Origin: Pseudomonas helvetica
GTDB taxonomy: Bacteria; Pseudomonadota; Gammaproteobacteria; Pseudomonadales; Pseudomonadaceae
Assembly: GCF_039908645.1 (NCBI RefSeq)
Contig: NZ_CP150917.1
Span: 1,212,501 to 1,276,500 of the forward strand
Direction: 5' to 3'
DNA: 64,000 nucleotides
Shown here piece by piece: positions 694-61,902 of this stretch. The number at the start of each line of letters is the position of its first letter. Within the stretch, counting starts at the first letter, position 1. The notes under the pieces were generated by a model that saw nothing but the letters and a program-made list of their open reading frames with translations, had not been told where the DNA came from and searched no databases. The position numbers were made by a program, and so were the translations under genes.

Positions 694-834
694 GCATTCC
701 GCATCGAGTTCAAAGGTGGCGAGAACCCGTACGAAGGCAACAAGAACACGCTTACAGACCGCCAGGTCAACAAGAAGCGCCGCTTGATGACGCACCACAA
801 GAAAGCCGACAAGAAGCGCCGCGACAAGCGCTGA
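694..834 (+). pseudogene. der: 3' end of der (EngA) GTPase, separated from its 5' part by insertion sequences
   Basis: Forty-six codons and a TGA stop (832-834) encode a tail reading AFRIEFKGGENPYEGNKN, then DRQVNKKRRLMTHHKK, ending in KKRRDKR. This is the characteristic C-terminus of Pseudomonas Der, the two-GTPase-domain ribosome-assembly factor: the last strand of the KH-like domain plus the basic tail. The frame is open upstream only into IS sequence, and the IS3 terminus sits at 691. The GTPase domains should lie on the other side of the insertion, beyond the left edge. Der is essential in E. coli, so either the truncated product still works, an intact copy exists elsewhere, or the population is mixed. 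The fragment is identified with confidence; its fate is inference. Confidence 0.8.
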
Positions 835-870
835 TTGGTGCGCCGGCTCGTCCCGTCGGGATGGGCTTTT

Positions 871-1001
871 GTGGCGAGGGAGCTTGCTCCCGCTCGGCTG
901 CAAAGCAGTCGCAAAATCAGCGGATGCGTTCTATCTGAATACCCTCGGTTCCAGGTTTTGGGGTCGCTTCGCGGCCCAGCGGGAGCAAGCTCCCTCGCCA
1001 C
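871..1001. repeat. REPIN (inverted pair of REP palindromes)
   Basis: Begins GTGGCGAGGGAGCTTGCTCC and ends with its reverse complement, with about 90 bp of partly palindromic sequence between. This is the common REP type of fluorescent pseudomonads. It lies in the gap between the der tail and the aminotransferase gene. Confidence 0.9.
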
Positions 1002-1126
1002 AGGTTAGGTGGCGGCTGTATTAGAAGAAGGGCGCCCATGGCGCTCTTTTTCGTGTCTGGCGTTTGAGCTATCCTCGGGCTCTCCCGCGCCGCCGTTAGC
1101 GTCGGGTGTTCAGTAGGGAATCACCG

Positions 1127-41099: not shown

Positions 41100-41780
41100 A
41101 TGCCCGCCGAGTCGACTCGACTGTCGCCCGTCATGAGCCGTTTTGCCCACTCGGCCGCCGTGCTGGGCTGGCTGGGATTGAGCATTCAGCTGTACCTGGT
41201 GTTTTACGGCCGCTGGAGTGTCAGCGCCAGCCAGCTGGGTGGGCTGGTGAGTTACTTCAGTTACTTTACGGTCCTGACCAATACGCTGGTGGCGACGGTG
41301 CTGACTTGCGCCGTGACTGCACGTGAGTCGAAGGGCCGTACGTTTTTTTTACAGCCGTGGGTCAGCAGCGGGATTGCCGTGAGCATTACCCTGGTCGGCC
41401 TGGCGTACAGCCTGTTGTTGCGGCATTTGTGGCATCCGCAGGGCTGGCAGTTCATTGCCGACGAGTTGTTGCATGACATCATGCCGCTGCTGTTTCTGTT
41501 CTATTGGTGGCGGTGCGTACCCAAGGGCACCTTGCGCCTTGGGCACATCGGTTTGTGGGCGATTTACCCGGTGCTGTATTTCGCTTTTACCTTGCTGCGC
41601 GGGCACTCGCTGGGGCTTTACCCGTATCCCTTTATTGATGTCGAAAAACTCGGTTATCCCCAGGTGTTCATCAATGCCAGCGGGATATTGCTGGGGTTTG
41701 TGCTGATTGCGCTGGTGGTGGTCGGGCTGGATCGCTGGCGCGGGACTGGGGCAGGCCGAGTGGGCATAGATTCAAAGTGA
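41100..41780 (+). CDS. Pr6Pr-family membrane protein
   Basis: The 226-aa protein has six hydrophobic helices and the family segments YFSYFTVLTNTLVA, LLRHLWHPQGWQFIADELLH (quoted at 20), and YPVLYFAFTLLRG. No function has been assigned to this family. The last part of the gene (from codon about 188, CAGGTGTTC) is the source of the repeated tail in the tandem array immediately downstream; the array copies lack 17 bp and 15 bp that the intact gene keeps. Confidence 0.8.
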   Translation: MPAESTRLSPVMSRFAHSAAVLGWLGLSIQLYLVFYGRWSVSASQLGGLVSYFSYFTVLTNTLVATVLTCAVTARESKGRTFFLQPWVSSGIAVSITLVGLAYSLLLRHLWHPQGWQFIADELLHDIMPLLFLFYWWRCVPKGTLRLGHIGLWAIYPVLYFAFTLLRGHSLGLYPYPFIDVEKLGYPQVFINASGILLGFVLIALVVVGLDRWRGTGAGRVGIDSK

Positions 41781-41789
41781 ACATCAAAT

Positions 41790-41920
41790 GTGGTGAGGGG
41801 GCTTGCCCCCGTTGGGTTGCGCAGCAGCCCTAAACCCATTAAACGCGGTGTGCCAGACAAAGCCCGATTGCAGGTTTTGGGAGTGCTACGCACTCCAACG
41901 GGGGCAAGCCCCCTCGCCAC
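41790..41920. repeat. REPIN 0 of the array, diverged type
   Basis: Left arm GTGGTGAGGGGGCTTGCCCC and matching right arm. It is a different REP variant from the four REPINs inside the 394-bp units. Confidence 0.85.
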
Positions 41921-41932
41921 AAGTGTTTGTCA

Positions 41933-42326
41933 TTACTCCTCGTCGCTGTCGTCGAGTTTCCAGTAGCCGACGGCTTTCACCTGATCCTGACTCAAACCCT
42001 TCTCGTCCAGCAGCACGCGGCGGATCTGTCGTGAGGCTCTGGATTCTGTCGCGATCCACGCATACAACTCGCCACTCGGCATTGGCAGGTGTTTATTGCT
42101 GGGCTTTGTGCTGATTGCGCTGGATCGGTGGCGCGGGACGGCGGCAGGCCGAGTGGGCATAGATCCAAAGTGAACATCGATTGTGGCGAGGGAGCTTGCT
42201 CCCGCTCGGCGGCGAAGCCGTCGTAAACCGGGTAATGTGGTCTGCCTGATACAACTCGATTGAATGGCTTTGGGGTCGCTTCGCGACCCAGCGGGAGCAA
42301 GCTCCCTCGCCACGGGTGTTTGTCGC
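41933..42326. repeat. Array unit 1
   Basis: Contains a yqjH tail encoding PSGELYAWIATES onward to DDSDEE, the shortened Pr6Pr tail from 42089, and a REPIN at 42181-42315. Small substitutions distinguish it from the other units, such as TCTGGATTC in the yqjH tail. Confidence 0.9.
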
Positions 42327-42720
42327 TTACTCTTCGTCGCTGTCGTCGAGTTTCCAGTAGCCGACGGCTTTCACCTGATCCTGACTCAAGCCCTTCTCGT
42401 CCAGCAGCACGCGGCGGATCTGTCGTGAGGCTTTGGACTCTGTCGCGATCCACGCATACAACTCGCCACTCGGCATTGGCAGGTGTTTATTGCTGGGCTT
42501 TGTGCTGATTGCGCTGGATCGGTGGCGCGGGACGGCGGCAGGCCGAGTGGGCATAGATCCAAAGTGAACATCGATTGTGGCGAGGGAGCTTGCTCCCGCT
42601 CGGCGGCGAAGCCGTCGTAAACCGGGTAATGTGGTCTGCCTGATACAACCCGATTGAATGGCTTTGGGGTCGCTTCGCAACCCAGCGGGAGCAAGCCCCC
42701 TCGCCACAAGTGTTTGTCAT
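42327..42720. repeat. Array unit 2
   Basis: Same order as unit 1; its REPIN (about 42575-42710) has a right arm GGGAGCAAGCCCCCTCGCCA, a mixed variant. Confidence 0.9.
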
Positions 42721-43114
42721 TTACTCCTCGTCGCTGTCGTCGAGTTTCCAGTAGCCGACGGCTTTCACCTGATCCTGACTCAAGCCCTTCTCGTCCAGCA
42801 GCACACGGCGGATCTGTCGTGAGGCTTTGGACTCTGTCGCGATCCACGCATACAACTCGCTACTCGGCATTGGCAGGTGTTTATTGCTGGGGTTTGTGCT
42901 GATTGCGCTGGATCGGTGGCGCGGGACGGCGGCAGGCCGAGTGGGCATAGATCCAAAGTGAACATCGATTGTGGCGAGGGAGCTTGCTCCCGCTCGGCGG
43001 CGAAGCCGTCGTAAACCGGGTAATGTGGTCTGCCTGATACAACGCGATTGAATGGCTTTGGGGTCGCTTCGCGACCCAGCGGGAGCAAGCTCCCTCGCCA
43101 CAGGTGTTTGTCGC
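42721..43114. repeat. Array unit 3
   Basis: Same order; single-base differences include GCACACGGCGG and CTCGCTACTCGG within the yqjH tail. REPIN about 42969-43103. Confidence 0.9.
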
Positions 43115-43508
43115 TTACTCCTCGTCGCTGTCGTCGAGTTTCCAGTAGCCGACGGCTTTCACCTGGTCCTGACTCAAGCCCTTCTCGTCCAGCAGCACGC
43201 GGCGGATCTGGCGTGAGGCATTGCACTCTGTCGCGATCCACGCATACAACTCGCCGCTCGGCATTGGCAGGTGTTTATTGCTGGGGTTTGTGCTGATTGC
43301 ACTGGATCGGTGGCGCGGGACGGCGGCAGGCCGAGTGGGCATAGATCCAAAGTGAACATCGATTGTGGCGAGGGAGCTTGCTCCCGCTCGGCGGCGAAGC
43401 CGTCGTAAACCGGGTAATGTGGTCTGCCTGATACAACCCGATTGAATGGCTTTGGGGCTGCTTCGCGACCCAGCGGGAGCAAGCTCCCTCGCCACAGGTG
43501 TTTGTCGC
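43115..43508. repeat. Array unit 4, adjoining the intact yqjH-like gene
   Basis: Same order; its yqjH tail has GGCATTGCACTC in place of GGCTTTGGACTC. Its REPIN (about 43363-43497) is the one that sits next to the complete gene. Confidence 0.9.
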
Positions 43509-44294
43509 TTACTCTTCGTCGCTGTCGTCGAGTTTCCAGTAGCCGACGGCTTTCACCTGATCCTGACTCAAACCCTTCTCGTCCAGCAGCACGCGGCGGA
43601 TCTGTCGTGAGGCTTTGGATTCTGTGGCGATCCACGCATACAACTCGCCGCTCGGCATTGGCAGTTGTTGCACGGTGCTCAGCAGGTGGTTCTGACCGGC
43701 TTCGCGCAAGACCCATATCACCTTGACCTCTGCCTGGCTTTCGAGGACTTGCTGTTCGGCACCGTTCTCGATTTCCACCACCACCAGCGCGCGCCGGTTG
43801 GCCGCCAGGCCTTCGAGGCGGCGGGCGATGGCGGGCAGGGCGGTCTCGTCGCCGATCAACAGATAACTGTCGAAGATGTCCGGCACGACCATCGAGCCCC
43901 GTGGCCCGCCGATGTGCAGGAACTGGCCGGGTGTGGCCTGTGCTGCCCAGGTCGAGGCGGGGCCATCGCCGTGCAATACGAAGTCGATGTCCAGCTCCAG
44001 CGTGTCCAGGTCGTAACGGCGGGGCGTGTAGTCACGCATCGCCGGCAGAGGTCCATTGTCCTTGCCGGCGCCCAGCACCAAAGTTTCCAGAGCGGCGTGT
44101 TCCGCAGCGGTTTGCGGGAAAAACAGCTTTACGTGGTCGTCCGTACCGAGGCTGACGAAGCCGGCCAGTTCCGCTCCGCCGAGGGTGATCCGGCGCATGC
44201 GCGGGGTCAGGTCGACCACCCGCAGCACTTCCAGGCGACGGCGTTTGAGTTCGTGGCTGACGCGGTGAATGGTTTGCACAATGACTTCAGTCAT
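43509..44294 (-). CDS. Siderophore-interacting FAD-dependent ferric reductase (YqjH-like)
   Basis: The 261-aa protein binds FAD and releases iron from ferric siderophores with NAD(P)H. The flavin motif MRDYTPRRYD and the following LDIDFVLHGDGPASTWA, FLHIGGPRGSMVVPD and LLIGDETALPAIARRLEG are the family signatures. It is preceded by a His-rich PadR regulator with a 4-nt overlap, the E. coli yqjI/yqjH partnership, though there the genes are divergent. The gene's last 50 codons are the source of the 394-bp array, and all repeated tails share its frame and stop codon. Confidence 0.88.
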   Translation of the reverse strand: MTEVIVQTIHRVSHELKRRRLEVLRVVDLTPRMRRITLGGAELAGFVSLGTDDHVKLFFPQTAAEHAALETLVLGAGKDNGPLPAMRDYTPRRYDLDTLELDIDFVLHGDGPASTWAAQATPGQFLHIGGPRGSMVVPDIFDSYLLIGDETALPAIARRLEGLAANRRALVVVEIENGAEQQVLESQAEVKVIWVLREAGQNHLLSTVQQLPMPSGELYAWIATESKASRQIRRVLLDEKGLSQDQVKAVGYWKLDDSDEE

Positions 44295-61048: not shown

Positions 61049-61178
61049 GTGGCGAGGGAGCTTGCTCCCGCTGGAGTGCGAAGCAGTCCCAAACCTGCGA
61101 GCGCGGTTTGTCAGGTGAATTGCGTTTATCTGTTCTGCGGCGGCTTCGCCCCCGAGCGGGAGCAAGCTCCCTCGCCAC
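61049..61178. repeat. REPIN on the 3' side of the RAYT gene
   Basis: A 130-bp inverted REP pair, identical to 61773-61902 except for one base (GCGGCGGCTT here, GCGGGGGCTT there). The two flank the transposase as direct repeats. Confidence 0.95.
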
Positions 61179-61206: not shown

Positions 61207-61665
61207 TCAGAGCCAGCTTGCATCCCAGAGTGGATAGTCTCCGATGTTTTCCACCAACCCGGCCCGCAATGGGTTGGCGACGATGTATCGGGCGAATGGG
61301 CGCAGGTCTTCACCGTCGCGTATTGCCCTGTCGTGGTAACCGCTTTGCCAGAAGGCTCCTGAGCCATTGACCGCTCTATTGATAGTGAGTGTGCTACGAG
61401 ATTTGATTGATTGCATGACCTGAGACAGGGTGCCTTGCTTCAGTTCAAGCAACCAGTGGAAATGATCAGGCATGACGACCCAGGCCAGAGAGTAGATTTG
61501 ATTTCTTTCATGAGCCCGTTTCATTTCTGTTACCAGCAATCGGCCTATACGCCAGTCGGCGAAGAGCGGGCACCGCTGGTGAACGACGGTCGTGACCATA
61601 TAGGCCCGTCCGGGTTCAGAGTACCTGCCACGGTGTAGACAATGAGAGTTTGGGCGGGGATGCAT
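61207..61665 (-). CDS. REP-associated tyrosine transposase (RAYT)
   Basis: The 152-aa protein has the Y1/HUH nuclease features of the TnpA_REP family: GRAYMVTTVVHQRCPLF near the start, the HUH metal site in VMPDHFHWLLELKQG, and the catalytic tyrosine in FARYIVANPLRAGLV, followed by GDYPLWDASWL. RAYTs are single-copy vertically inherited genes thought to spread REPINs. Near-identical REPINs lie on both sides (61049 and 61773). The length is at the short end of the family but complete in motifs, so the protein is probably active. Confidence 0.92.
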   Translation of the reverse strand: MHPRPNSHCLHRGRYSEPGRAYMVTTVVHQRCPLFADWRIGRLLVTEMKRAHERNQIYSLAWVVMPDHFHWLLELKQGTLSQVMQSIKSRSTLTINRAVNGSGAFWQSGYHDRAIRDGEDLRPFARYIVANPLRAGLVENIGDYPLWDASWL

Positions 61666-61772: not shown

Positions 61773-61902
61773 GTGGCGAGGGAGCTTGCTCCCGCTGGAG
61801 TGCGAAGCAGTCCCAAACCTGCGAGCGCGGTTTGTCAGGTGAATTGCGTTTATCTGTTCTGCGGGGGCTTCGCCCCCGAGCGGGAGCAAGCTCCCTCGCC
61901 AC
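61773..61902. repeat. REPIN on the 5' side of the RAYT gene
   Basis: The partner of 61049-61178, in the same orientation and 129/130 identical. It lies upstream of the RAYT start. Confidence 0.95.

Follow-up and report, generated by a model that had tools for sequence, protein, structure and literature searches.

Introduction

Ordered clusters of REPINs are known from Pseudomonas fluorescens SBW25, where 16 of them were counted and their formation was ascribed in 2011 to a second mechanism that is not named in the cluster section of that account (PMC3116915). The largest of these clusters packs four REPINs and one REP into slightly more than 700 bp, and a short unrepeated stretch is said to lie "usually" between the units (Figure S7 legend, PMC3116915). 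The same source describes evenly spaced tandem arrays, GI-GIII and GI, that are built from single REPs. For large REP clusters, it has been reported that most have tandemly reiterated units with flanking DNA segments, and that many Pseudomonas repeats are tandemly reiterated (PMC3733652). Tandem REPINs can also be lost: in E. coli, five of six copies of a cluster disappeared in a mutation-accumulation line, and a local copy change of about 1.45e-8 per REPIN per generation was derived from this one event (PMC8049555). Finally, intergenic repeats, REPs included, favour gaps between convergent genes (PMC2718517).

Here, we analyse a tandem array (A1 in the following) from Pseudomonas helvetica, located in a stretch of 64,000 nucleotides (contig NZ_CP150917.1, positions 1,212,501 to 1,276,500) that we call the window. 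As far as the class is described in the cluster passages of the two accounts, A1 is a member of the published REPIN clusters with flanking DNA (PMC3116915, PMC3733652), i.e., its flanks of 97 and 166 bp lie within the repeat. In contrast to what the SBW25 account says of its clusters, the units of A1 abut directly, and each extends into both neighbouring genes (PMC3116915). The arrays of this genome also differ from those clusters in size, with units of 239-394 bp and up to 11 copies. Compared to the GI-GIII and GI arrays, A1 shares the even spacing but not the restriction to single REPs. The E. coli cluster resembles A1 in that the copy number of tandem REPINs changed, but the reported event is a deletion and not a first duplication (PMC8049555). 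The account of large REP clusters holds, in its part on such clusters, neither a joint nor a unit-by-unit analysis (PMC3733652), both of which are given below for A1. Our literature search found no paper that joins tandem duplication, microhomology, palindromes and REP elements, and a broader search yielded only PMC3116915 as pertinent among the matches listed.

Results

A1 consists of five head-to-tail units (41661-43661), i.e., one of 425 bp followed by four of 394 bp (Table 1). Within each unit, a 131-bp REPIN is preceded by the 3' end of the Pr6Pr gene and followed by that of the convergent gene for a siderophore-interacting protein (SIP). TRF reports a period of 394 for 41726-43669 (4.9 copies, 94% matches, score 3378). 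Together with the unit alignment, this bears out a preliminary description of the locus as a tandem array of five copies, four of them with a 394-bp period. Its statement that both genes remain whole on the outside of the array also agrees with the ORFs and domain profiles; the Pr6Pr product has no Pfam match. In units 2-5, 97 bp lie to the left and 166 bp to the right of the REPIN. Pairwise comparison of these four units reveals differences at 9-16 of 394 sites, such that they are distinct copies. Unit 1 is indeed longer because it keeps the intact Pr6Pr end, as had been described, but this is not its sole difference, since its REPIN shares no more than 73-75% identity with the REPINs of units 2-5. 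A repeated protein was considered and rejected, because the period of 394 is not divisible by 3. Each unit contains an ORF of 126 aa in which the SIP C-terminus is fused to REPIN-derived sequence.

Table 1. Features of array A1, the RAYT gene and further REPIN arrays of the genome. Positions refer to the window unless marked as genome positions.
Feature	Position	Strand	Remarks
Pr6Pr-family membrane protein gene	41100..41780	+	complete; 3' end opens unit 1; ORF; NCBIfam NF038065 E 4.5e-40
A1 unit 1	41661..42085		425 bp; intact Pr6Pr end kept, divergent REPIN
REPIN of unit 1	41790..41920		73-75% identical to inner REPINs
A1 unit 2	42086..42479		394 bp; joint at start
REPIN of unit 2	42183..42313		131 bp; predicted ssDNA fold -49.7 kcal/mol, z -9.3
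A1 unit 3	42480..42873		394 bp; four-site tract in common with unit 1
REPIN of unit 3	42577..42707		
A1 unit 4	42874..43267		394 bp
REPIN of unit 4	42971..43101		
A1 unit 5	43268..43661		394 bp; continues into intact SIP gene
REPIN of unit 5	43365..43495		
SIP (yqjH-like) gene	43509..44294	-	complete; 3' end closes every unit; Pfam PF08021 and PF04954
RAYT (REP-associated tyrosine transposase) gene	61207..61665	-	sole PF01797 match in genome; NF047646 E 3.8e-47
A2	genome 1208471-1213570		period 373; six units and a seventh inside the window
A2 last (seventh) unit	698..1070 (L009 8199-8571)		period 373; remainder left of the window
A3	genome 4303229-4304476		period 370, 3.4 copies
A4	genome 1026029-1027282		period 239, 5.2 copies
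A5	genome 4894846-4896935		period 298, 7 copies
A6	genome 5219969-5222640		period 243, 11 copies

The REPIN of A1 is formed by two inverted REPs and is predicted to fold into one long hairpin (values for unit 2 in Table 1; z of -8.3 for the single-stranded fold of the unit 1 REPIN). Allowing up to 3 mismatches, its REP has 345 forward and 339 reverse matches in the genome, i.e., it is dispersed in a genome that carries a RAYT. The RAYT gene is found about 18 kb from A1 and is flanked on both sides by REPINs (61049-61178 and 61773-61902). For the region G000:C1:1315281-3009050 of this genome, there is no exact forward match of the 21-bp REP among the 100 places listed; variant REPINs are present there.

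The REPINs of units 2-5 are 97-99% identical to one another, from which unit 1 deviates. The right flank of unit 1 is 93-96% identical to the other units while the left flank reaches only 67%, because units 2-5 carry deletions. The first unit of A2 (L009 3472-3844) has a REPIN that is 63% identical to the rest, with 94-99% for the left and 80-90% for the right flank. We also compared both arrays with the single REPINs of P. fluorescens HK44. With regard to A1, the inner units show 97.7-98.5% identity vs. 73% for unit 1; the respective values for A2 are 93-94% vs. 66%. Given that the HK44 REPIN is nearer to the inner units, the first REPIN of A1 and of A2 may have been replaced in place. A donor search for the REPIN of unit 1 gave no close source, the best other match being 82% identical (40 of 361 candidates scored). 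The leftmost copy of A3 retains by eye just one short palindrome, and the first unit of A6 is not divergent.

Within units 2-5, the joint reads TTGGCAGGTGTTTATTGCTGG, where the native left side is CAGGTGTTCATC...ATATTGCTGG and the native right side GGCAGTTGTTGCAC. It had been proposed that only CAG is shared at the joint. CAG is common to both native sides, but it is not all: they also share the 8-mer CAG(G/T)TGTT with one mismatch, and 17 bp of the Pr6Pr side are missing from the repeated joint. Exact matching results in an overlap of -5, i.e., none, such that the left breakpoint can be placed anywhere from 41661 to about 41690. This leaves two readings, namely that the sides joined via the 8-mer and a few bases were lost afterwards, or that they joined nearer to 41690 at lower homology. 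Units 2-5 show a second small deletion of 15 bp, that is, gene remnants in A1 do lose bases. The exact-match overlaps of other arrays are -2 for A2, 1 bp for A5 and 0 for A6. REPIN and joint are about 172/70 bp apart in A2, 54/114 bp in A5 and 76/37 bp in A6, compared to 97/166 bp in A1. The A1 joint is located in gene-derived sequence outside of any REP or REPIN, which is not the boundary that REP-REP recombination would leave.

Among pairs of biallelic sites at which at least two units agree on either variant, 24/45 are incompatible in A1, 49/91 in A5 and 41/78 in A6. In A1, a run of four sites (columns 233-273) is common to units 1 and 3, with further sites common to units 1 and 5. This mosaic suggests conversion or crossing over between units, and it backs the earlier proposal of an expansion by homologous recombination; recurrent mutation could be behind some of the site conflicts.

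The genome contains at least five further REPIN arrays with periods of 239-373 (Table 1). In all six arrays, a gene end is found by eye inside the unit. We take the gene end in A2 to be that of der and the one in A3 to be that of DUF6124. An insertion of about 2.5 kb, bordered by GAG at either end, separates the seventh unit of A2 from the rest; A2 and this element cover 1-691 and 698-1070 of the window (L009 3472-8571).

We assessed the relation of REPINs and arrays in 120 evenly spaced stretches of 20 kb (2.4 Mb or 37% of the genome, not including A1 and A2), for which TRF reports 13 arrays with a period of at least 40. A REPIN is present in 4/4 arrays with a period of at least 200 and at least 3 copies, where these cut-offs were chosen after the list was seen. 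A whole REPIN is expected in 1.8-3.1% of random units of the same length (at least 50 bp non-coding), which gives P of about 2.7e-7 for 4/4 under a null based on a crude ORF mask and 108 single REPINs. Just under the cut-offs is a 306-bp repeat (1.9 copies) that is REPIN-free and apparently coding. Apart from the four REPIN arrays, the sample comprises four arrays that look coding by eye, the 306-bp repeat among them, and five with a unit of 72-73 bp. The latter (G000:C1 2579783, 3555425, 3703769, 3764812, 4131566) appear by eye to belong to another REP-like family and may be nearer to the GI-GIII and GI arrays of SBW25 than A1 is, as far as those are described (PMC3116915). The sample thus backs the REPIN involvement that had been suggested, with the post hoc choice of cut-offs in mind, and shows an association of REPINs and arrays, not a cause. 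Cause and effect are not separated by it, since REPs prefer gaps between convergent genes and such gaps may simply tolerate duplications.

The preliminary description had called for a search for similar REPIN-bearing tandem arrays elsewhere, and such arrays are found in the own genome as well as in others of the genus. Array candidates occur in at least 11 of 398 genus genomes (own genome included), a lower bound because the search used a single exact pattern within a single range of spacings. At the 30 loci fetched, TRF reports periods of at least 200 for 8 of these 11 (G000, G038, G073, G131, G205, G247, G365, G398) and none for G125, G153 and G210. The joint overlap by exact matching is -4 in G073 and 2 in G398 (L290), where the joint is at the REPIN edge. 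In G205 (L315), the periodic stretch begins and ends at REPINs, as expected from REPIN-REPIN recombination. Given these two cases, more than one route into arrays is likely. The array unit of G247 (L294 1384-2085) includes by eye an apparent 3' end of a RAYT gene, and G365 (L292 918-2752) shows nine REPINs in less than 2 kb with periods of 118, 220, 254-255 and 338.

To compare A1 with relatives, we used 109 orthologous loci, of which 80 are the best among 538 of a first search and 29 come from a second search, with some species likely included twice. The A1 joint (up to 4 substitutions) is found in 0/109. The 3' end of the SIP gene is single-copy in all 84 loci with a match, 25/109 giving none; a Pr6Pr match is missing from 10 loci and is not convergent in 3. 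Allowing up to 3 mismatches, the joint is also in none of the 56 other genomes among 57 searched (35/56 of the same genus), a set without the nearest species found (G108, HK44, H3). For each genome, the second relatives search scored 2 candidates, and even in the own genome it shows just 2 of the 5 copies, i.e., it is unfit for counting copies. In the A1 gap, HK44 (L012) has one REPIN, to which the above identities refer, and G108 (L092) has one REP pair in 174 bp. Pseudomonas sp. H3(2019), the closest relative by protein, shows no such REPIN in its gap. HK44 and H3 are drafts (contigs L011 and L012), in which the absence of an array says little because drafts can hide arrays; G108 is one contig.

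The locus corresponding to A2 likewise holds a single REPIN in both HK44 and G108, and so does the one corresponding to A6 in HK44. At the A5 place, the REPIN of G108 has a different loop and may thus be an independent insertion; HK44 lacks the right flank there. For A3 and A4, we found no relative that carries the same REPIN in one copy. In the loci closest to A3 (L279, L280), the gene end is present, with nothing but possible REPIN remnants by eye. The only two orthologous loci found for A4 (L251, L252) differ in the downstream region and lack a REP of the A4 type.

Discussion

We consider it about 60% probable that the REPIN hairpin promoted a duplication at short homology and that homologous exchange then expanded the array. 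At the start, there would have been one REPIN between two convergent genes, whose predicted long hairpin would have destabilised replication or repair when single-stranded. With hardly any homology or none, the new strand or a broken end would have resumed at a point upstream of the REPIN, which would have duplicated the REPIN with about 97 bp of left and 166 bp of right flank. The resulting direct repeat of about 400 bp would then have grown to five units, partly homogenised by exchange or conversion between units, presumably via RecA. Its copies are probably neutral, since a tandem duplication that ends inside both convergent genes leaves each of them whole at an edge. A start from one REPIN is favoured by HK44 and G108, each of which has just one at this locus. 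The REPINs in the sampled long arrays, the predicted fold and the absence of the joint from the relatives searched also speak for our reading. A start with near-zero homology is favoured by the overlaps of A5, A6 and A2 (1, 0 and -2) and by joints that lie away from the REPIN, but it does not fit A3 and A4, where 138 and 59 bp of the periodic stretch are left over beyond whole units. G205 and G398, with array ends or a joint at REPINs, also speak against our reading, and the different REPIN in unit 1 of A1 does not follow from it.

The preliminary description had a similar sequence of events in mind, i.e., a first duplication promoted by the REPIN, for example through a RAYT nick, and subsequent recombination. 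The role of the REPIN and the exchange are supported by our results, but the nick is not. If the RAYT cut at a REP end, repair or re-insertion of the excised strand could yield the first tandem copy with flanks. That the one RAYT of the genome has REPINs on both sides is in accordance with this, as are the joint of G398 (L290) at a REPIN edge and the unit of G247 (L294) that resembles by eye the 3' end of a RAYT gene. However, the joints of A1, A2, A5 and A6 are 37-173 bp from the REPIN ends, and the 97 and 166 bp observed for A1 disfavour a cut at the REPIN edge, which renders this route unlikely. The position of the A1 joint in gene-derived sequence outside the REPIN also led us to reject REP-REP recombination as the origin of A1. 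Unequal homologous recombination of two REPINs in direct orientation would account for G205 (L315), which begins and ends at REPINs, but given the single REPIN in HK44 and G108 it is highly improbable here.

Selection might keep the array, e.g., if it terminates transcription between the convergent genes or contributes to mRNA stability. A gene end within all six arrays (by eye) and the hairpin nature of REPINs would suit such a function, and Bertels and Rainey propose specific roles of clusters in their discussion of them (PMC3116915). On the other hand, the array was not seen in the relatives searched and the copy number varies widely between arrays, from 3.4 to 11, such that we regard selection as quite improbable. 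The sequencing method is not stated, which leaves room for an assembly artefact. We rejected it based on the unit-specific sites, i.e., the differences among units 2-5 reported above; in addition, the genome is a single contig of 6,437,446 bp, and similar arrays exist elsewhere in it and in other genomes. An artefact is thus extremely improbable.

Only tentatively, the hairpin-promoted duplication might be extended to the whole genus. REPINs would then be general hotspots of short tandem duplication in Pseudomonas that act via their hairpin, without the joint being cut by a RAYT, and the edge REPIN would later be swapped in place for an unrelated one. Short-read draft genomes may conceal such arrays. 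Since several joints are readable and relatives with a single REPIN exist for some arrays, the first step and the later exchange can be separated. The copies and joints of A1 help to show how REPIN clusters start and grow.
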